A DNA stretch of 51,221 nucleotides from Chthoniobacteraceae bacterium (GTDB lineage Bacteria; Verrucomicrobiota; Verrucomicrobiia; Chthoniobacterales; Chthoniobacteraceae): contig CANIWM010000041.1 of NCBI GenBank assembly GCA_947471505.1, positions 1 to 51,221 on the forward strand, read 5' to 3'. Below are positions 30,861 through 44,576 of the stretch, piece after piece. Positions within the stretch are counted from its first letter, which is position 1. Every line of letters starts with the position of its first letter. A program made the translations under genes and the position numbers. The notes beneath the pieces are model-generated. The model was not told the origin of the DNA. It worked only from the letters and a program-made list of their open reading frames with translations, and did no database searches.

Positions 30861-33800
30861 ATGACTCTCCGCTCAAAAGCCCTCGCATTACGCCCAATCA
30901 CTGCAATCTCACTGGGGCTCGCCCTTGCGCTGGCACAGCCTATTTGCGCGCAGGCGCAAGTCATCCCGCCGGGAGGGACTGTGCCGGAGACTCGGGTGAT
31001 GCGGCTGGCGAAGATTCGGAATCTGGGGATGCAGTATTTCGAGGGCGGGAAGTTCGCGGAGGCGATTAAGCAGCTCGAAAGTTATTGGGGGGAGCTTCAG
31101 GAGGAGGAGAAGCAGCAGGCGCCGAGTGCGTTCGTGGTGCTGGCGCTGGGGGAGTGTTATTACCGGCTGGGGAAAGAGGAGAATCTGAACAAGGCAATCA
31201 CATGGTGGACGAATGAGTTCCTCCGCCGGTGGCCGTCGCACGAGAAGGTGATCGAGGTGAAGCTGGCGATTGCGCAGGCTTACATGCAGATGAAGCAGTG
31301 GGAGAAGGCGATCGAGTGGTGGGCGCAGATCGAGGCGTGGGCGAATCCGCTGCCGACGACGAATCCGAGCCGGGTGATCTTCCGGGAACTGGCGCTGACG
31401 GGCCAGGCGCACTGCTACATGCAGCTCAAGAAGCCGGAGGACGAAATCGGCGTCTTGGAGAAGCTGGTTTATCCTGAGTTCAACACGTCCCCTTCCGCAG
31501 AAGGCGCGGTGCGGCTGATGTCGCTTTACGCGCTCAAGCACGACCCGCTGGTGCCGGATACGGTGGAGTTTGCCGACAAGGCCATCGCGCTCCTGAAGAC
31601 GCTCCAGACGAAGACGCATCTCGTGGAGAACTTCGTGGTGCTGAACTCGCTGGCGATCAAATTGGGCGACGAACTGCTCGACGTTCACGCTTACAAAAAG
31701 GCGCTGGAGGGATACTGGTCCGTGCGTCCCCGCGAGGAGGTGTCGAAGATGCAGCGCGAGCGCATCGCGGCGATGAATCTGCGGGTGGAGCAATACATGA
31801 AGGCCGCCGGGACCGACCCGCAAAAGCTGGCGCAGGCGATCCGTATGAACGAGGAGATCGTGAAGCCGCGCATCGCAGAGGCGGAGCGCATCCTCGCGCA
31901 GTTCGAGAAAGCGGGCGACTACATGCCCGCGCTCTATTTCCGCATGGCGCGCTGCCACTCGGACATGAACAAGAAGTGGGAGGCCATCGTGGTCTTCAAC
32001 CAAATCCTCGAAGAATACCCGAAGGCTCCGGTGCGAGAGCTGGTCATTTTCAGCCGTCTCCAGCACTACGGAGAACTGGGACTGGCAGAACGCACTTACC
32101 AACTCGCGGAGGAATATCTAGCGGAGTATCCAAAGGGCAAACACGCCGCCGATGTCGCTTACATCCGCGCAGCCGCGTCCATGCGGAAGAAGGATTGGTT
32201 CATGGCGGAGAAGCACTTCACCGCCGCGCAAGAGCTGCTGAAGGTGCTCGATGAAAAAGCGCGCGATGCTTACTGGGCCGAGGTGCGCTACCAGATCGGG
32301 AATACGAAGTTTCTGCAAAACAAGTTCCCCGAAGCGCAGAAGGATTTGCAGACCTTCATCACGGAGTTCGGCTCGGCGGCGAATGGCAAGGGAGCATTCA
32401 TGGAGGATGCCGAATACGAGCTGGCGCTCACGCATTTGTTCTCCGGCCATTACCAAAAAGACCCCGATAAAGCGAGCGACACAGACGGCACTATCGAGCG
32501 ACTCAAAGCGCACCTCGCGAAGTGGGGCGAGCGTTCGTCCTACGGCTCCGACGCTCGCTACCGGCTCGGCGTCTGCAATTTCGCCGCCTACGAAAACGAG
32601 CAGTGCGTGAAAGAGTGCGAGACATGGCTGGCGACCTTTGCCTCCGACCCGAAAGAGCTGCTCCAGCCGGAAGTCTATGCGCTCATGGGCGACGCGAAGG
32701 CTGCGATGAAAATGCACGCCGAAGCCGCCGTCGCATACATCGAGAGCTACAAGCGCGCGACCACCGACGAAGTGCTCAGCTACTCGCTCTTCGAGGCGGG
32801 CAAGCAGCTCCAAAAAGCCGCCGATTGGGAAGGCGTGGAAAAGCTCTACACCGAGTTCGTGCAAGCCCGCCCCGAGCACCCCGCAGCCGTCACGGCGGTC
32901 TATTGGATGGGCAAGGCCAAGTCGAAACTCGGGCGCATGGAAGAAGCGAAGAAAATCACCATCGAGACGCTGACAAAATACATCGGCGACCCGAAGCGCG
33001 AAGGCATTGAGATGATCCTCACCCAAGTCGCCGACTGGTCCCGCCGCCGCCCAGCCGTCACGGCAAAAGAAACCATCGGCACCGAAGTCAGTAACTCCGA
33101 CACAGAAAAGCCCAAAGCCGAGCCCACGAAATGGGACGCCGAAGCCGAGCTAGAGCGCATGATTAAGCCCCTCCGCGAAAACGCGAACCTCACCACCGAG
33201 CTACGCATCCTCTTCACCTTCAGCGAGCTGGCGAAGCTCAGCCGCAACCCCGAAAAGCGAGAGACACTCCTCGCCGAGATCGCCGAGAAGTCCAAGCCCG
33301 ACGACCTCAGCCCGCACCTCCTCATGGAAGTCGGCGACTACCAGTTCAGCAAAGGGAAGATCGAAGTCGCCGAGACGCTCTACCAGACCTTGCGCGAAAA
33401 CTACCCCAAGGCCGACCGCGTGGACGCCGGCTGGGTCGGCCTCGCCGAAGTGAACTTCGCCCGCAAAAACTACGACGAAGCGATGAAGCTCTACACCCAC
33501 GCCATTGACCGCCTCGGAGCGCCCTACAAACTCAAAGAAGCCCTCCTCGGCCAAGCCAAAGTGCATCTCGAACGCGGCAACTTCGCCGAAGCCACGAAGC
33601 TCTTCCAAGAAGTCGCCGGAGTCCGTGAATGGCGCGGCGAATCCACGGCCTACGCCCTGTTCCAAATGGCCGAAGCCCTCCTTCGCCAAAAGAAATACCC
33701 CGAAGCCGTCTCGCAGTTCGAGCGCGTCGCCCTCACGCAGCTCAAGTATCCCACTTGGGCCGCCCGCGCCTACCTGAAAGCCGCCGAGGGCTACCGGATG

Positions 33801-33917
33801 CAGGGCAAAGACGATAAAATGAAAGAGCGCCTGCAAGAGCTGCTCACCAAGGAGAAACTCCAAGCACTCCCCGAAGCCGAAGAGGCCAAACAGAAGCTCG
33901 CGAGCGGAGGGAAATAG
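30861..33917 (+). CDS. large exported tetratricopeptide-repeat protein
   Basis: A 1018-residue protein with a Sec signal (MTLRSKALALRP... LGLALALAQPICAQA, cleaved near 33). The whole mature part is a helical solenoid of TPR-like repeats, for example AKIRNLGMQYFEGGKFAEAIKQL, RYQIGNTKFLQNKFPEAQKDL, ALFQMAEALLRQKKYPEAVSQF and KAAEGYRMQGKDDKMKERL. Such long periplasmic TPR proteins serve as scaffolds, often for outer-membrane assembly or peptidoglycan enzymes; the partner here is unknown. It lies 58 bases behind the amidase gene on the same strand, so a role in cell-wall turnover complexes is possible but inferred. The repeats run to the C-terminus, and no catalytic domain is visible. Confidence 0.85.
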   Translation: MTLRSKALALRPITAISLGLALALAQPICAQAQVIPPGGTVPETRVMRLAKIRNLGMQYFEGGKFAEAIKQLESYWGELQEEEKQQAPSAFVVLALGECYYRLGKEENLNKAITWWTNEFLRRWPSHEKVIEVKLAIAQAYMQMKQWEKAIEWWAQIEAWANPLPTTNPSRVIFRELALTGQAHCYMQLKKPEDEIGVLEKLVYPEFNTSPSAEGAVRLMSLYALKHDPLVPDTVEFADKAIALLKTLQTKTHLVENFVVLNSLAIKLGDELLDVHAYKKALEGYWSVRPREEVSKMQRERIAAMNLRVEQYMKAAGTDPQKLAQAIRMNEEIVKPRIAEAERILAQFEKAGDYMPALYFRMARCHSDMNKKWEAIVVFNQILEEYPKAPVRELVIFSRLQHYGELGLAERTYQLAEEYLAEYPKGKHAADVAYIRAAASMRKKDWFMAEKHFTAAQELLKVLDEKARDAYWAEVRYQIGNTKFLQNKFPEAQKDLQTFITEFGSAANGKGAFMEDAEYELALTHLFSGHYQKDPDKASDTDGTIERLKAHLAKWGERSSYGSDARYRLGVCNFAAYENEQCVKECETWLATFASDPKELLQPEVYALMGDAKAAMKMHAEAAVAYIESYKRATTDEVLSYSLFEAGKQLQKAADWEGVEKLYTEFVQARPEHPAAVTAVYWMGKAKSKLGRMEEAKKITIETLTKYIGDPKREGIEMILTQVADWSRRRPAVTAKETIGTEVSNSDTEKPKAEPTKWDAEAELERMIKPLRENANLTTELRILFTFSELAKLSRNPEKRETLLAEIAEKSKPDDLSPHLLMEVGDYQFSKGKIEVAETLYQTLRENYPKADRVDAGWVGLAEVNFARKNYDEAMKLYTHAIDRLGAPYKLKEALLGQAKVHLERGNFAEATKLFQEVAGVREWRGESTAYALFQMAEALLRQKKYPEAVSQFERVALTQLKYPTWAARAYLKAAEGYRMQGKDDKMKERLQELLTKEKLQALPEAEEAKQKLASGGK

Positions 33918-34114
33918 AAAAAGTCTTTTCGGCAGAACACCCCGATTCCCCCTGGTAGGATGCCTGTCCGACCGAGGAAGATACTGCTTCGGCTAATGTT
34001 TACGTCTGCAATCAATGCAACTTTCCTTTCTCTGCAATGACCCTTGAAAAACGAACAGCACTTCGATGTACCTGCCTTGCACTTCCCCGCCGCCCAATCC
34101 ATCCCCCCAAAAAC
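33918..34114. other. intergenic region after the TPR gene
   Basis: I see no gene, terminator or RNA here. Base composition becomes more AT-rich than in the flanking genes, marking the left side of an island that runs to the rpoA leader near 35600. Confidence 0.4.
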
Positions 34115-34429
34115 ATGCCCTCAGAAAACCATTCCCTGACCTCATGAATGCAAAATATGTCATCAGGAAATGAGAACATGAGCAGAAACCCACGAGAAAT
34201 GATCTCAGGAACTGAAATCCTCACATCAAGTTCTGAAAAGCTGACATCATAAACCGAAAACCTGAGATCAAGAACGCCAAACCTGATCTCAGAAACGCCA
34301 GAGATGATCTCAGGAACTAAAAAGATGATCTCAGGAAACGCATTCCTGTCCTCAGGATCTCAAAAAATGTCCTCAGGAAACGCAAATATCTCCTCATCTT
34401 TTGAAAAACTGAGTCGTTTTTCCCGGTTT
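34115..34429 (+). repeat. array of about 15 degenerate 21-bp (seven-codon) repeats
   Basis: Units of exactly 21 bases start at 34115, 34136, 34157 and so on to 34409. The core of each is TCAGGAAC or a variant: ATGATCTCAGGAACTAAAAAG at 34304 can be compared with ATGATCTCAGGAACTGAAATC at 34199. One strand reads as a heptapeptide repeat M/L-x-S-G-x-x-x (MISGTKK, MISGNAF, LSSGSQK, MSSGNAN), with Met or Leu always in the first position. In-frame stops (TGA at 34145, TAA at 34250) break it, so it is either a decayed heptad-repeat protein gene or a DNA minisatellite that spans open frames. A hairpin (TCTCTGT, TGA, ACAGAGA) follows at 34445-34461. Confidence 0.85.
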
Positions 34430-34566
34430 TCGAGGGCAATTTCTTCTCTGTTGAACAGAGAGAAAGGCTTCTTGGCTTCATTCTCTAATTGTATGTCCCC
34501 TATCGCCTTCCGTTTGCACTTACGTCCTGTGTCCGCGCGTTCTGGTATTCTTTGGCGACGGGCATA

Positions 34567-34755
34567 ATGAACCGCTCTCAAAGTAGCTTCGCCAGCTTCC
34601 GTATCTGCTCTGTTTTTCGTTTTCTGACTCGCTTTCCCCAATTGCAGAGAAGACTAAAGCGTGCAGAGCGTCATGGGCGAGACATATGTAACGAGTTGCA
34701 ATCAATTGCGGATGACTTAGTGAATCATCGTCTGCGATTCCAAAATCCACAATGA
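34567..34755 (+). CDS. small unknown protein coupled to the next gene
   Basis: A 62-residue basic, helical protein (MNRSQSSFASFRIC... LQRRLKRAERHGRDICNELQ... NPQ). The ATG at 34567 is one of two in-frame starts; the other, at 34489, adds residues of doubtful quality. Its TGA overlaps the ATG of the next gene (ATGA), the pattern of translational coupling, and that is the main reason to believe it is real. Codon use and GC content are lower than in the flanking chromosomal genes, as expected of acquired DNA. I do not recognise the family; a toxin-antitoxin or toxin-immunity partner is possible but not shown. Confidence 0.45.
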   Translation: MNRSQSSFASFRICSVFRFLTRFPQLQRRLKRAERHGRDICNELQSIADDLVNHRLRFQNPQ

Positions 34756-35315
34756 AGCAGGTCTTTGAAATCTCAAAAGCTGAGAAAGCACCGAATATCG
34801 GTCCACTTCGCGCCGGGACGTCTCAAGGAATTGCTGAGCGATACCTTAGTTTTGAAGGGAATCCCAAAATTGGCATATGGAAAACTGTTGAATGCGTCTT
34901 TACTACCGGTCGAAAACTGAAGACGGAATTCGGCGGTTTCATGTTCGCGCCTGTCGTTTTCAAACCTGTGCTCGACAACGACCCCGTGCTACTAAGGCTG
35001 CTTTTGGCAAGTTGCGAACTCCTTCCAATTATAGTTGAGGGGAGAGAAGCGGTTGTCTCGCACTCGATAAAGATAGTCGATTGCGTGGATGAGAACAGTA
35101 GCAGGATTAAATATCTACCCGACGATGTTTGGATTTTTGTTCCCGATAAACTCTCCCCAGCAGGGCAAATATGCCGAATTGGCCAGTATAGAACGGCGGT
35201 GAGCATCATTGCGACCGATACGAACCTCCCGCCCGAAGAAGACTTCTACCAATGGTATCACAAACAAAATTACACGGGCCTCCGCTTTAAACTCCTTTGG
35301 CAGAGCGATACGTAG
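34752..35315 (+). CDS. unknown protein, possibly of immunity-protein type
   Basis: A 187-residue soluble protein without a signal or membrane segment. It has alternating beta-strand-like stretches (KTVECVFTTGRKLKTEF, VWIFVPDKLSP, TAVSIIAT) and ends EDFYQWYHKQNYTGLRFKLLW. An ending with a short helix and G-L-x-F-x-x-L-W resembles immunity proteins of the DUF1629/Imm43 type that accompany polymorphic toxins, but this is a weak impression. It is coupled by a 4-base overlap to a 62-residue ORF and lies in an AT-richer island next to the 21-bp repeat array and upstream of rpoA. Function unknown; horizontal acquisition is likely from composition. Confidence 0.7.
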   Translation: MKQVFEISKAEKAPNIGPLRAGTSQGIAERYLSFEGNPKIGIWKTVECVFTTGRKLKTEFGGFMFAPVVFKPVLDNDPVLLRLLLASCELLPIIVEGREAVVSHSIKIVDCVDENSSRIKYLPDDVWIFVPDKLSPAGQICRIGQYRTAVSIIATDTNLPPEEDFYQWYHKQNYTGLRFKLLWQSDT

Positions 35316-35624
35316 GGCATGATGATTGCACGTTTTAGGCTGCGGTATTCGTTGACGCTTCTCCTGCTTTGCACGTTTTGATTTCATACCTTTTGAATTT
35401 CGATTCCCGAAAGCGCATCAAGTCAGCAGGTGAGCGCTTGGAAGAAAATTGGCCCGATTCGGAAAAAGTATTTGCCAAGCCGGGCAATCGCCGCTTTCCT
35501 CCGCGTCCTTGAGTGAAGCGCACCACATATCGCGCTGTAGGTCCTCGGGCTCGGGTCGTCAGACCACGGGCTGCTATGCGCCGAGGGAAACCCAGCGAAA
35601 TTAAATAAGAAAGAAACACATATC
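35316..35624. other. rpoA leader region with an inverted repeat
   Basis: I see no convincing gene in these 309 bases. A structured segment lies at 35543-35586 (CCTCGG ... CCGAGG, with an inner GGTC gtca GACC), close enough to rpoA to act as an mRNA leader. The rpoA promoter must lie here because no ribosomal-protein gene precedes it. A minus-strand frame of 94 codons is open but has no family match I can name. Confidence 0.35.
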
Positions 35625-36644
35625 ATGTCAGTACGTCTCGGACGTTTTGAACTACCGAAAGTGCCCGTCGCCGACGAGAGCACGAAGTCAACAACCTACG
35701 CCAGATTCATTGCCGAACCATTCGAGCAAGGATACGGCGTGACCATTGGAAATGCGCTCCGCCGCGTGCTGCTCAGCAGCATCGAAGGTGGCGCGATTAC
35801 CAACGTCAAAATCACCGGTGCCAACCACGAATTCCAGACGCTTCCGGGCGTGTTGGAAGATGTGACGGACATCGTCCTGAACCTCAAGAAGGTCAAATTT
35901 AAGTGCGCGGACCACGAGCCACGCACGCTCTCCATCAACGTGAATCGCGAAGGCGCGGTCACGGCTGGCGACATCCAGGAAGTCACGGGCGTCGAAGTGG
36001 TGAACAAGGACCAGATCATCTGCACGCTCGATAAAAAGCAGCGTTTTGAAGCCGAACTCACCGTCCGCGTGGGCCGTGGTTTCGCGACTGGCGAAGAAAA
36101 CAAATTTGTGGATATGCCCATCGGCGTCATCCCGCTCGACGCGATCTTTTCGCCCGTCACCCGCGTCAAATACGCAGTGGAAGCGACGCGCGTCGGCCAA
36201 CGCACCGATTACGACAAGCTCGTTCTCGAAGTCTGGACGGATGGCCGCATTGAGCCCGAAGAGGCGCTCAAGCAAGCCAGCTCGATCCTTCGCAAGCACT
36301 TGGAGCCCTTCTATAACTACGACGAAGCGCAAGTCACCTTCGACGAGACGCCACAGGCCGCGAACCAAGAGAACCAGAAGCTCAAAAAGCTCCTGAATAT
36401 GTCCGTGAACGAGATCGAACTCTCCGTCCGCGCGGCAAACTGCCTCAACAACGCCAACATCACCACCGTCGGCCAGCTCGCCATGAAGTCGGAGCAAGAG
36501 ATGCTGAAGTATCGCAACTTCGGCAAAAAATCGCTCAACGAAATCAAGGAAAAGCTCCATCACCTCCAGCTCTCGCTGGGAATGAAGTTCGACAGCGGCC
36601 TCGTCGATGCGAACCTCCTCGAAACCAAACTCACCGGAGCCTAA
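35625..36644 (+). CDS. rpoA: RNA polymerase subunit alpha
   Basis: A 339-residue alpha subunit. The N-terminal dimerisation and assembly domain (to about 235) contains AEPFEQGYGVTIGNALRRVLLSSIEGGAI, PGVLEDVTDIVLNLK and PIGVIPLDAIFSPV. A flexible linker leads to the C-terminal domain (about 260-320) with VNEIELSVRAANCLNNANI, the helix-hairpin-helix that contacts UP elements and activators. It assembles with beta and beta' to form the core enzyme. In most bacteria rpoA follows rpsM-rpsK-rpsD; here the upstream neighbour is an unrelated AT-rich island, so rpoA and rplQ have been separated from the ribosomal-protein cluster and need their own promoter. Confidence 0.98.
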   Translation: MSVRLGRFELPKVPVADESTKSTTYARFIAEPFEQGYGVTIGNALRRVLLSSIEGGAITNVKITGANHEFQTLPGVLEDVTDIVLNLKKVKFKCADHEPRTLSINVNREGAVTAGDIQEVTGVEVVNKDQIICTLDKKQRFEAELTVRVGRGFATGEENKFVDMPIGVIPLDAIFSPVTRVKYAVEATRVGQRTDYDKLVLEVWTDGRIEPEEALKQASSILRKHLEPFYNYDEAQVTFDETPQAANQENQKLKKLLNMSVNEIELSVRAANCLNNANITTVGQLAMKSEQEMLKYRNFGKKSLNEIKEKLHHLQLSLGMKFDSGLVDANLLETKLTGA

Positions 36645-36679
36645 AAACGGCCCGACACACTTAAAGAAATAACGACACA

Positions 36680-37141
36680 ATGCGTCATCAACGTAAAACA
36701 GCAAAACTAGGCCGCACACAGGGCCACCGCGATGCCCTCCTCTCCAACCTCGCAGTGAGCCTCATTGAGCATGGCCGCATCAAATCCACGGTCGCAAAGG
36801 TGAAAGCCTTGCGTCCATTCGTGGAGAAACTCGTCACCAAAGCCAAAGTCGGCACGCTTCACTCGCGCCGTATGGTCCTCGCGGACCTTCGCCACAACGA
36901 AAACGCGACGACGAAGCTCTTCACCGAAATCGGCCCCATCAACGCCGAGCGTAAAGGCGGCTACACCCGCATCGTCAAGATCGGTCAACGCCGCAGCGAT
37001 GCGAGCGAAATGGCCTTTATCGAGTGGGTGGACCTTCCTGCATCGGCCACTCCCGCAGTGGAAGTGAAGGAAGAGAAGCCCGCTAAGAAAGCTCCCGCGA
37101 AGCGCGCACCAAAAGCAAAGAAGGACGAAGGCGAAGGCTAA
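36680..37141 (+). CDS. rplQ: 50S ribosomal protein L17
   Basis: A 153-residue ribosomal protein. The first 115 residues match L17 (MRHQRKTAKLGRTQGHRDALLSNL, RIKSTVAKVKALRPFVEKLV, GGYTRIVKIGQRRSDASEMAFIEWV). The last 30 form a Lys/Ala/Pro-rich tail, longer than in E. coli L17 (127 residues) and typical of several phyla. It sits 35 bases behind rpoA in the usual order and ends the unit before the terminator at 37165. Confidence 0.98.
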   Translation: MRHQRKTAKLGRTQGHRDALLSNLAVSLIEHGRIKSTVAKVKALRPFVEKLVTKAKVGTLHSRRMVLADLRHNENATTKLFTEIGPINAERKGGYTRIVKIGQRRSDASEMAFIEWVDLPASATPAVEVKEEKPAKKAPAKRAPKAKKDEGEG

Positions 37142-37164
37142 GTCGTTCGACTGAACCAATTCAC

Positions 37165-37200
37165 AAAAGGCGAGCCTGCGAAAGTGGGCTCGCCTTTTTT
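37165..37200 (+). terminator. Rho-independent terminator of rpoA-rplQ
   Basis: The stem AAAAGGCGAGCC pairs with GGCTCGCCTTTT around a 10-base loop centred on GCGAAAGT. The 3' arm runs into a T tract that continues past 37200. Confidence 0.93.
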
Positions 37201-37308
37201 TCGTACCGCGAATGCGTGCGATTATTGTTGTGCGCAGAGGGGGCAGATCGGTATCCACGCCGGGCCGTTGCTAAGAAATCTGCGGCACATCAATTTACAA
37301 CTCCGCTT

Positions 37309-39648
37309 ATGAATATCCGCATCGTCCTCGCAGTCACCGCAGCTCTCGCTGCACCCGCATTTTCGCAAATCGCTACGGTCCGACCGGCCGCCGACGCCAA
37401 GAACAGAATCAAATGGGACGATATGGATCTCGGGCCATTTTTCTCGGGCTGTTATCAGGTCAAAAATGCGACCTCTTTTAAAGGCATCGCCGTAGCGGTG
37501 GGAACGAAGGAATCGCCGGCAACGATCCTTTTCGATCCAGAGCTCATGCGCTTCCACGCTGCGTGGGAGGGCGGACTCGCCGCGTTTGCGCGTGGGCGTG
37601 GCGGGCTGGAGGGGACGATCAAAAACGATGGAGAAGTGAACGTCTCGACGGGCTGGACCGTGGGCATCGGCGCGGAGATTAAGGCCGACCCGAGGGAGCG
37701 GCATCAGGGCAACATGGCCGGCGTGAAGTGGAAGGGCATCCATGTGAACGGACCGCACACAGTTCTGAGCTACTCGGTGGGCAAACAGTCGGTGTTGGAA
37801 CTGCCGGGGAGCTCGGTAACGGATGGAGTGCGGACCTACACGCGGACGTTCACCATCAGCGCGGGCAGCGACATTAAACAGATTCTCGTGGCCGATGGCG
37901 CGGGCACGATGGGCAATGGAATGGTTACGATTGCGGAGGGCGATAAGACCTCCGGCTTTGCCCTGCGTGGCGCTCCTTCGGGCGCAAAACTCGCGGTGAA
38001 AGACGGGCACATTATCGCAGAACTTCCCGCGCTGACTCAGCCGACGACTTTCCAGATTGCCTTCGCCACGGTGCCGACTGCGGACATTGCGAAGCTATCG
38101 TTTGCTGGGCAAGTGACACTGCCCGCTGTGGCCGCGCTGACGAAGCCCGGCCCGGCCCGCTGGGGTGCTCCCCTCGTCTCGCAGGGCACGGTCGGCGAGG
38201 ACCAGAGCGGCTACGCGAGCGACGAGATTCCTTTCCCCGAGAACAACCCCTACAAGAGCTGGATGCGCCCCGGTGGACACGACTTTTTCGCAGACGGGAC
38301 GTGCGCGCTGGCGAATATGAGCGGTGACGTTTGGATCGTCTCGGGGCTCGACGAAAAGCTGCAAGCGGTGACGTGGAAACGCTTTGCCAGCGGGTTCTTC
38401 CAAGCGCTCGGCTGCAAGGTCGTGGACGGAAAAATCTACGTCGTCGGGCGCGACCAGATCACCCGGTTGCACGACCTGAACGGCGACGGCGAGGCGGACT
38501 TCTACGAGAACTTTAACAACGACTGCGTGGTGACGGACAACTACCACGAATTCGCGCTCGATTTGCAGACGGATAAAGCGGGCAATTTTTACTACGCGAA
38601 AGGCTCGCCGTGGACGCCCACGAACCAATCGCCTCACCAAGGCACGATGCTCCGCGTGAGCAAGGACGGCGCAAAACTCGACATCATCGCCACCGGCCTC
38701 CGTGCGCCCAACGGCCTCGGCATGAGTCCCGACGACGTGCTCAGCGTCAGCGACAACCAAGGCCACTGGATGCCCGCCAACCGCCTCAATATCATCAAGC
38801 CCGGCGGCTTCTACGGGATGGTCCCCGCCGCGCACAAGGTCATGACTTTTAAAAAGGCCGACGGCACCGATTACAAAGCGAACCCTTCGCTCCAGACGGC
38901 GCGCGATGAATACAAGACAGAGTTTTGGGGCAAGGCCGACTCCCCTACCCCGCTCGAAGGCTACGACAACCCACTCGTCTGGCTGCCCATGAACATTGAT
39001 AATTCGCCCGGTGGCGAAGTGTGGGCGCCAAAAACTTGGGGGCCGTGGGGTGGCCACATGCTCCACATGAGCTACGGCAAATGCATCCTCTACGGCGTCA
39101 CGATGGAGACCGTCGCAGGCGAGCAGCAGGGCAGCGTCACCGCATTCCCCGTGAAGTTCCGCAGCGGCATCCAGCGCGGGCGCTTCAGCCCGACGGACGG
39201 GCAGCTCTACCTCAGCGGATTGAGCGTCTGGCAGAGCAGTGCGGCGAAAGACGGCTGCTTCCAGCGCGTCCGCTACACGGGCAAAGCGGGCGTGTATCCG
39301 ACGGGTTTCACCACGAAGGCGAATGGCGTAGAACTCACCTTCAGCGCCCCGCTCGACGCCGCCAGCGCAGGCGACTTGCAGAGCTGGAATGTGGAGCAGT
39401 GGAACTACATCTGGAGCGGCAACTATGGCTCGCCCGATGTCTCCGTTTTGGACCCGAAAAAGAAAGGCAAAGACATCGTCTCCATCACCAAAGCGACCGT
39501 CAGCGCGGACAAAAAGAGCGTCTTCCTAGAGCTCGCAGACCGCGTCCCCGTCATGCAGATGAAAGTGCAGTGCAACATGAAAGCAGCCGATGGCAGCACC
39601 GTGAAACACGACACCTACGCGACCATCAACAAACTCCCTTCCAAGTAA
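37309..39648 (+). CDS. exported propeller protein, DUF6797-like N-terminal domain
   Basis: A 779-residue exported protein. The ATG at 37309 gives a Sec signal (MNIRIVLAVTAALAAPAFS); upstream in-frame starts are ignored. The mature N-terminus IKWDDMDLGPFFSGCYQV followed by KGIAVAVG resembles the DUF6797 domain of Verrucomicrobia and Planctomycetes (tentative). Residues about 290-640 form a beta-propeller of the sorbosone-dehydrogenase/gluconolactonase type: GDVWIVSGLDEKLQ, LHDLNGDGEADFYENF with a calcium-like D-x-N-G-D loop, GLRAPNGLGMSPDD, NRLNIIKPGGFYG. No heme c motif (C-x-x-C-H) is present, which some relatives carry. It is followed 24 bases later by a DUF1080 gene, suggesting joint action on an exported carbohydrate. 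Confidence 0.82.
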   Translation: MNIRIVLAVTAALAAPAFSQIATVRPAADAKNRIKWDDMDLGPFFSGCYQVKNATSFKGIAVAVGTKESPATILFDPELMRFHAAWEGGLAAFARGRGGLEGTIKNDGEVNVSTGWTVGIGAEIKADPRERHQGNMAGVKWKGIHVNGPHTVLSYSVGKQSVLELPGSSVTDGVRTYTRTFTISAGSDIKQILVADGAGTMGNGMVTIAEGDKTSGFALRGAPSGAKLAVKDGHIIAELPALTQPTTFQIAFATVPTADIAKLSFAGQVTLPAVAALTKPGPARWGAPLVSQGTVGEDQSGYASDEIPFPENNPYKSWMRPGGHDFFADGTCALANMSGDVWIVSGLDEKLQAVTWKRFASGFFQALGCKVVDGKIYVVGRDQITRLHDLNGDGEADFYENFNNDCVVTDNYHEFALDLQTDKAGNFYYAKGSPWTPTNQSPHQGTMLRVSKDGAKLDIIATGLRAPNGLGMSPDDVLSVSDNQGHWMPANRLNIIKPGGFYGMVPAAHKVMTFKKADGTDYKANPSLQTARDEYKTEFWGKADSPTPLEGYDNPLVWLPMNIDNSPGGEVWAPKTWGPWGGHMLHMSYGKCILYGVTMETVAGEQQGSVTAFPVKFRSGIQRGRFSPTDGQLYLSGLSVWQSSAAKDGCFQRVRYTGKAGVYPTGFTTKANGVELTFSAPLDAASAGDLQSWNVEQWNYIWSGNYGSPDVSVLDPKKKGKDIVSITKATVSADKKSVFLELADRVPVMQMKVQCNMKAADGSTVKHDTYATINKLPSK

Positions 39649-39672
39649 ACAAAACCAACAAACATAAAACAC

Positions 39673-40365
39673 ATGAAACTCATCATACTCGCAACACTCG
39701 TCGCAGGCTTCGCCTTCGCCGGGGAACAAAACCTCTTCAACGGCAAAGACCTCACCGGCTGGGAAGGCAACGAAAAGCTCTGGTCCGTGCAAGACGGCGC
39801 AATCACCGGCAAGACCGGCACCGAGGGCGAAACCAAACTGAAACACAACACCTTCCTCGTTTGGAAAGGCGGCACCGTCTCGGACTTTGAGTTGAACTTC
39901 AAATACCGCATCGAGAAGGGCAACAGCGGCGTCCAATATCGCTCCAAGACCATCACTCCCGGCGAAAACGGACCCATCGTCGCTGGCTATCAGGCCGACT
40001 TTGAAGCAGGCACAACCTACAGCGGCATCCTCTACGAAGAGCGCGGACGCGGTATCCTCGCCCAGCGCGGACAGCAGACAAAAATCACCACCGACGCCGA
40101 CGGCAAGAAGCCAAAAGTCGAAGTCACCGGCAGCGTCGGCGACTCGAAAGAGATCCAAGCCGCCATCAAAAGCGAAGACTGGAACGAATACCGCATCGTC
40201 GCGAAGGGCAACCACCTCCAGCACTTCATCAACGGCAAGGCGACTGCCGACGTGACGGACGAGCACAGCGGTGCAGCAGCGGAAGGCATCCTCGCCCTCC
40301 AAATCCACGCTGGCCCAGCAATGGTTGTACAATTCAAGGACTTGATCCTGAAGACGGATAAATAA
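39673..40365 (+). CDS. exported DUF1080 protein (3-keto-disaccharide hydrolase type)
   Basis: A 230-residue exported protein with a Sec signal (MKLIILATLVAGFAFA) and a concanavalin-like fold of the DUF1080 type. The family start LFNGKDLTGWEG, the middle block FELNFKYRIEKGNSGVQYRS, the YQADFEAG segment and the late NEYRIVAKGNHLQHFINGK with LALQIHAGP are all present. DUF1080 domains are abundant in Verrucomicrobia and Planctomycetes; some act as 3-keto-glycoside hydrolases (established for a few). It sits 24 bases after the propeller gene with a matching A/C-rich leader, and a strong terminator follows, so the two form one unit. The periplasm or cell surface is the expected location. Confidence 0.93.
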   Translation: MKLIILATLVAGFAFAGEQNLFNGKDLTGWEGNEKLWSVQDGAITGKTGTEGETKLKHNTFLVWKGGTVSDFELNFKYRIEKGNSGVQYRSKTITPGENGPIVAGYQADFEAGTTYSGILYEERGRGILAQRGQQTKITTDADGKKPKVEVTGSVGDSKEIQAAIKSEDWNEYRIVAKGNHLQHFINGKATADVTDEHSGAAAEGILALQIHAGPAMVVQFKDLILKTDK

Positions 40366-40387
40366 CCACCTACTCGGTTTTCAACAG

Positions 40388-40419
40388 CGGCCACGGAACT
40401 CCGGTTCCGTGGCCGTTTT
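40388..40419 (+). terminator. Rho-independent terminator
   Basis: The 12-bp perfect stem CGGCCACGGAAC pairs with GTTCCGTGGCCG across a 4-base TCCG loop, followed by TTTT. It ends the propeller/DUF1080 unit. Confidence 0.92.
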
Positions 40420-40438
40420 GCATTTGCCGCCTTTTTTT

Positions 40439-44492: not shown

Positions 44493-44576
44493 GGGTCGAC
44501 GAAAGACACGAAAGACACGAAAAAGAGCGGATACGATGCGTCCATCTTTCGTGTCGTTCGTGTCTTTCGTGGACCC
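44493..44576. repeat. intergenic hairpin built from tandem 9-mers
   Basis: The left arm carries GGGTC, ACGAAAGACACGAA and GACACGAAA units. The right arm, after an 18-base centre, is their reverse complement (TCTTTCGTGTCG ... GTGGACCC). The arms pair over about 32 bases with a few mismatches. It lies between the Rrf2 and RarA genes and shares its design with the element at 1888-1970: short tandem units arranged as inverted arms. Confidence 0.85.

Follow-up and report, generated by a model that had tools for sequence, protein, structure and literature searches.

The window, as we call the whole stretch of 51,221 nucleotides that was analysed, belongs to a MAG (96.7% complete) of a Chthoniobacteraceae bacterium, labelled G000 below. 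Between a gene for a TPR-repeat protein and an ORF of 187 aa, with a gene that we take from its sequence to be rpoA-like lying farther on, the window holds a degenerate tandem array and an adjoining tail (Table 1), whose terminus is a perfect 7-bp hairpin (34445-34461). The other genomes named most often are G006, from a sister species, G009, a related genome, G003, from the genus of G000, and G018, from its family.

Table 1. Positions of the array, its parts and the neighbouring genes, in the numbering of the window.
Feature	Position	Strand	Remarks
TPR-repeat protein gene	30861..33917	+	Upstream of the array; context, outside the element
Degenerate tandem array	34112..34426	.	Non-coding; roughly 15 units, each of exactly 21 bp; consensus from the unit profile AACATGACCTCAGGAACtGAA
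First unit core, TGA-NN-TCA	34116..34123	.	Unit columns 5-7 and 10-12; first copy TGCCCTCA
Array end, 7-bp dyad GAAAAAC ... GTTTTTC	34403..34422	.	Identical in G006, one difference in G009
Tail	34427..34461	.	Common to the window and G006, also at G009:C259
187-aa ORF	34752..35315	+	No Pfam match; context, outside the element
rpoA-like gene (presumed)	35625..36644	+	Beyond the 187-aa ORF, within the stretch 35457-40432 collinear with G006

The autocorrelation of the array reached 0.58, 0.61 and 0.55 at lags of 21, 42 and 63; among all other lags to 69 the highest value was 0.43, at lag 29. TRF called periods of 21 and 42. Accordingly, the exact 21-bp periodicity over about 15 units in the original prediction was borne out, and the observation of the array is itself correct. 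The extent given there, 34115-34461, held for the units but took the tail for part of them, and the strong conservation claimed for a TCAGGAA core was overstated, as the exact string occurs in 5 of the 15 units and the columns best kept between species are TGA and TCA.

Among nine genomes of the genus that were searched, the 187-aa ORF was present in its own genome only, with no match to the protein at E <= 0.001 in the eight others. The protein has two further relatives in G000, neighbours of each other (G000:C26:46954-48114), at 56% and 44%.

Elsewhere in the window, two short arrays of 7-bp units lie at 1888-1969, directly after the end of a plus-strand ORF (1887). The first repeats AATGACG and the second, 22 bp on, repeats TTCGTCA, the opposite-strand version, and the pair could fold as a hairpin. 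At 44499-44571 there are two short arrays of 9-bp units close by each other, ACGAAAGAC and TTCGTGTCG, with units that are near-identical on opposite strands, in a layout resembling the pair near 1900.

Unit length of non-coding arrays

Periodic loci were sought by an ungapped scan of 1.16 Mb from three genomes of the family (433 kb of G000 including the window, 334 kb of G003 and 388 kb of G018), a partly biased sample in that some contigs had been chosen for Y1 genes or for arrays already seen there, and a simple codon-score gene caller script separated coding from non-coding loci. The period was 21 (12 loci) or 42 (6 loci) at 18 of the 21 non-coding loci, counting as non-coding the locus L133, over 56% of which a gene was called, and at 15 of 18 when the three arrays known before sampling (window, L103 and L126) were excluded. 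The remaining three had periods of 9, 105 (five times 21) and 121. By comparison, 1 of 12 coding loci had either period (Fisher p = 2e-5 against 18 of 21), that one being at 21, and two were at 126 (six times 21). A block-shuffled control gave no periodic locus in 2.09 Mb. With gap-tolerant TRF on the same three genomes, the period was a multiple of 21 for 19 of 26 non-coding and for 5 of 30 coding arrays; the seven non-coding arrays off these multiples were mostly low-scoring and had periods of 15 (labelled coding by the codon-score scan), 18, 23, 24, 27, 106 and 121. The window array is a member of a class: these tandem repeats are non-coding and, in the sampled parts, nearly always have a unit of exactly 21 or 42 bp.

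Motifs are mostly unlike from locus to locus, with the exception of L126 and L133, and the arrays are found between convergent, divergent and codirectional neighbours alike. L126 (7661-7891) and L133 (2589-2966), both in G003, have, by eye, a common 21-bp motif in opposite orientation and a common tail. Also by eye, L107 (6674-7657) and L116 (1894-2880) of G000 hold proteins with similar starts (MSNEPWKFEANTF... and MSIDTAWKFASNTF...), each adjoining a 42-bp array.

No phase shift was seen in 19 arrays, with limits that were set by eye, a coarse threshold that passed over a one-base step in L108, and a count that omitted the indel-bearing part of L136. Ungapped detection favours indel-free arrays, and arrays with indels do exist (L136 between 923 and 1111; L108, with steps of 41 and 42 bp). 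Four arrays (window, L103, L121 and L127) have a mean unit identity of 0.52-0.57, yet show no phase shift over 12-18 units.

When the window array was aligned with that of G006, differences affected 8 of 90 positions in the TGA and TCA columns and 58 of 225 positions in the remaining columns (p = 0.0007), and over the last eight units, where the alignment is clean, 0 of 48 versus 16 of 120 (p = 0.0065). These differences indicate that the TGA-NN-TCA core evolves more slowly than the rest of the unit; the core columns were picked after the tested array had been seen, so the slower change is support, short of proof. Across arrays, there was no general signal of conserved columns clustering within units.

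Dyad symmetry exceeded that of permuted columns at p < 0.02 in 11 of 19 arrays, and at p < 0.05 in 12 of 19, the window profile giving z = 3.3. Compared with random intergenic units, the unit consensus was palindromic at p < 0.01 in 5 of 22 arrays, with p = 0.34 for the window. Dyad symmetry is therefore kept as a feature of some arrays only. Intrinsic curvature, calculated from a wedge table, looked positive at first against permuted columns (19 arrays, mean percentile 0.68, KS p = 0.0002); the excess vanished against dinucleotide-shuffled and random intergenic units (22 arrays, mean percentiles 0.50 and 0.52).

The lengths 21 and 42 are 2 or 4 times 10.5 bp, and 21 is also seven codons. The original prediction had suggested that the array might grow in coding units. 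A codon rule would also permit 18, 24, 27 and 30, yet among the non-coding arrays of the three genomes such lengths are missing or weakly represented. Non-coding arrays prefer 21 and its multiples, not multiples of 3 in general, so that growth in coding units is not supported and a reading based on helical phase is favoured. At 10.5 bp per turn, rotational phase is kept only by multiples of 21. Our preferred reading, to which we give a probability of just under one half (about 0.48), is that the array is an intergenic, non-coding minisatellite, one member of a class in which the unit is held at 21 or 42 bp, whole turns of B-DNA. The spacing would be kept because every unit must face one side of the helix, most likely with a putative dimeric or cooperative DNA-binding protein lined up along one face, and the motif would be free to vary between loci. 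The array itself probably grew by expansion of one ancestral unit, and array and tail together probably landed at new places on occasion.

The preference for these periods could stem instead from the way in which the repeats originate. A duplication process in these bacteria, by slippage or recombination where the DNA is protein-bound and helically phased, might copy two turns at a time, leaving functionless arrays to decay, with helical phase acting as a mutational ruler and not as an object of selection. Motifs that mostly differ between loci, indifference to the orientation of neighbouring genes and units no more curved than random intergenic ones are what such an origin would leave behind, and we regard it as a serious, if tentative, candidate. 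The four strongly diverged arrays that keep their phase, however, and the slower change in the core of the window array argue for selection. As the cause of the unit-length rule, a mutational ruler stands close behind selection for phase.

For other families of the order, 259 kb of sequence (G024, G026-G029 and G031-G037) gave no locus with a fundamental period of 21. There was no non-coding one in 154 kb of G030 (a run of N, L167, being left out), and 200 kb of G025 gave one non-coding locus with a period of 21. TRF rows from these last two genomes, which stand outside the three-genome counts, comprise arrays at 51 and 54 at contig ends of G030, both labelled coding by the codon-score scan, and one at 36 in G025. 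In 146 kb of a Bacteroidales MAG (G038), taken from two stretches picked for pattern hits there, the period was 21 in 5 of 6 loci, and 179 kb from seven other genomes gave two periodic loci, one of them at 21 (Fluviicola, G040), all of these being counted without gene calling. Codon phase was absent from the four G038 and Fluviicola arrays tested. This kind of array therefore occurs beyond the family, with an uneven spread. By eye, three loci in G038 have a common motif and flanks. At both L232 (9476-10717) and L233 (12861-14098), in the Bacteroidales MAG, two different 21-bp arrays are adjacent, as if copied together.

A broader version of the preferred reading, which we consider doubtful at this stage, would extend it to Verrucomicrobiota and Bacteroidota at large, with each genome carrying dozens (by extrapolation) of motif-diverse intergenic arrays selected at whole turns. 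Such a class would be defined by rotational phase instead of sequence, and its members would be scaffolds that offer a single face to nucleoid or regulatory proteins.

Relatives, neighbours and mobility

A search of the window's own genome and 37 relatives found a collinear array in two of the relatives; the match spans 323 bases at 79% in G006 and 163 bases at 67% in G009. The G009 array has a 21-bp gap relative to that of the window, corresponding to gain or loss of a whole unit. The segment common to the window and G006 covers 364 bp (34098-34461) at 81% identity, and therefore includes the tail, which stops exactly at the 7-bp hairpin. Similarity to G006 in the left flank amounts to about 15 bp, and no homology beyond the 364-bp segment was found within 8.2 kb and 10.7 kb around the two arrays. 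On the other side, the stretch 35457-40432 is collinear (92%) with a G006 contig other than the one that carries the array. The two sides of the window, array and rpoA, are therefore unjoined in G006, and the array is not a conserved neighbour of the rpoA-like gene. Synteny of rpoA is otherwise uninformative, because the G006 sequence upstream of it matches the window for only 49 bp. In G009, array and tail are on separate contigs; the tail was seen (82%) at G009:C259:2917-2973, on a contig where the array search gave no match. From these alignments, either the array moved to new neighbours or the neighbours changed around the array, and misjoined contigs of fragmented MAGs may also account for the pattern.

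One alternative is a MITE-like mobile element, in which array and tail would be moved by a transposase acting in trans, a mode of transfer that has been put forward for BrickBuilt of Porphyromonas. An array and tail held in common with G006 where the compared flanks are not, the separation of the two parts in G009, and the loci that have motif and tail in common in G003 (two), or motif and flanks in common in G038 (three), are consistent with such movement. So is a Y1 (IS200-like) transposase beside the array in G009, where the match lies 374 bp off and the listed ORF starts about 160 bp off. The link to this transposase was followed up and dropped. A scan of 2.4 kb at its closest homologue (G006:C196, 95%) showed no 21-bp array, and there is no Y1 match at E <= 1e-20 on the window's contig; the best homologue in G000 is at 43%, which is not close, and 21-bp arrays were near 3 of the 30 Y1 loci examined. 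RAYT-associated REP/BIME elements are palindromes beside a Y1 transposase gene, and with no Y1 match on the window's contig at that threshold, the array does not qualify as one. A BrickBuilt-type MITE would combine an intergenic array with a leader or tail, and a tail is what we find, with many copies per genome, whereas G000 has one, and no second array of the window motif was found in G000, G006 or G009 by a pattern search allowing up to two mismatches. Inspection by eye revealed neither terminal inverted repeats nor target duplications. Given these points, and since misjoined contigs could also swap neighbours, we consider it unlikely that the array is a mobile element of this kind.

Transcription and coding potential

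If the array were transcribed, its units might fold as hairpins or serve as guide RNAs. For the window array, folding was better than in shuffled sequences on both strands (z = -2.95 and -3.07). In 22 of 23 arrays (window p = 0.95), however, pairing of the arms inside a unit was no better than pairing across units, the sole exception being L133, with an excess of hairpin covariation inside its units. The tail of L126, in G003, contains a hairpin like that of an intrinsic terminator; outward hairpins of this type were detected with a simple script at 3 of 23 arrays (L126, L152 and L232), four hits against about two expected from background. There was no Rfam match up to E = 1, and no Nop-domain (PF01798) protein in any of 11 genomes, compared with 4 positive among 14 control genomes. 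Tests thus lent no support to curvature, to hairpins in RNA, to guides of the TIGR type or to terminator tails, and a role for the array as RNA is very improbable.

The original prediction took the array for the remnant of a protein built of L/M-x-S-G-x-x-x heptads, since 21 bp are seven codons and one frame yields L/M-x-S-G repeats. Within that frame, the two stops that it reported were found again over the 14 units counted, as was the part that remains open (34304-34567, 87 aa), and in G009 an ORF of 186 aa leaves the heptad frame open across most of the array. In the window copy, however, all six frames are interrupted, with between 1 and 14 stops per frame in 14 units, and the long open frame over the G006 array (148 aa) is on the opposite strand, with none in G000. 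Differences between G000 and G006 are spread evenly over the codon positions (25, 19 and 22, each of 105). Unit-to-unit variation gave no codon phase (p >= 0.05) in any of 23 intergenic 21/42-bp arrays, whereas the same test was positive (p < 0.03) for three of the four controls, coding heptad arrays from Firmicutes. When one open frame per array was searched (window, G006 and G009), the three had no NCBIfam match up to E = 1 and a single Pfam hit, that of the window frame at 14.4 bits against a cut-off of 30. The array thus has neither the open frame with codon-position bias nor the family match expected of a heptad-repeat protein of the X-X-X-L-X-X-G type.

The controls came from a pattern scan of the genome contig collection, which gave 36 stretches, of which 25 were scanned for period only and 11 inspected. 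Nine of the 11, all from Firmicutes, looked on visual reading like open coding heptads; four of these nine served in the codon-phase test. One cyanobacterial locus (L034) has five identical units. Viral contigs gave no matches.

As far as sequence can decide, a codon basis for the period of 21 is excluded, and descent from a heptad protein is hardly credible. The earlier interpretation is accordingly supported in part, in that a minisatellite, named there as an alternative, is what the array appears to be.

Comparison with described elements

Bacterial minisatellites are usually regarded as slippage products with arbitrary unit lengths. If nearly all sampled non-coding arrays of a lineage share a length commensurate with the helix while their sequences are unlike, it becomes testable whether helical phase selects or generates tandem repeats. 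Literature searches on intergenic 21-bp repeats, on repeats of Verrucomicrobiota or Prosthecobacter and on helical-turn repeats gave no description of such a class among the matches listed, as judged from titles and abstract openings of mainly open-access papers. Planctomycetota is a phylum related to that of the host. Its intergenic tandem repeats, which have been linked to noncoding deletions, resemble the arrays described here in location and arrangement, but the accessible part of that report (PMC9426551) mentions no 21-bp period. Intergenic DNA of E. coli, according to the part available, has a sequence bias at the helical period, with an AA/TT dinucleotide signal near 11 bp (PMC516772); this is likewise intergenic and tied to the helix, but is a dinucleotide signal and not a set of tandem arrays.

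CRISPR arrays consist of near-identical repeats of at least 25 nt with unique spacers of similar size; here the units are 21 bp and have no spacers, in agreement with the original prediction, which had set CRISPR aside. TIGR arrays, as described in the available portion of the source, have two alternating repeats of 8-12 nt with spacers close to 9 nt in length, and are accompanied by a Nop-domain protein (PMC12045711). They resemble the present arrays in their short period, their conserved and variable parts and their locus-specific sequence, but here the signals at lags 21 and 42 are equally strong and the profile has no alternating edge and loop repeats. Neither the Nop-domain Tas protein, sought in the 11 genomes, nor the alternating repeats with 9-nt spacers of a TIGR-Tas system were found.

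From what the accessible text of its description covers, the nearest described element is BrickBuilt of Porphyromonas gingivalis, a 23-nt minisatellite within a MITE; strain ATCC 33277 carries 19 such elements, all with one motif, and the element has terminal inverted repeats (PMC4596501). Both are spacer-free intergenic tandem arrays with an adjoining tail and gain or loss of whole units. They differ in that BrickBuilt has a 23-nt unit, many copies and terminal repeats (PMC4596501), whereas here the unit is 21 bp, each genome has one array of the window motif and many motifs, and no terminal repeats were seen by eye. The window array is one of many, and the interesting part is the rule that governs the length of their units.
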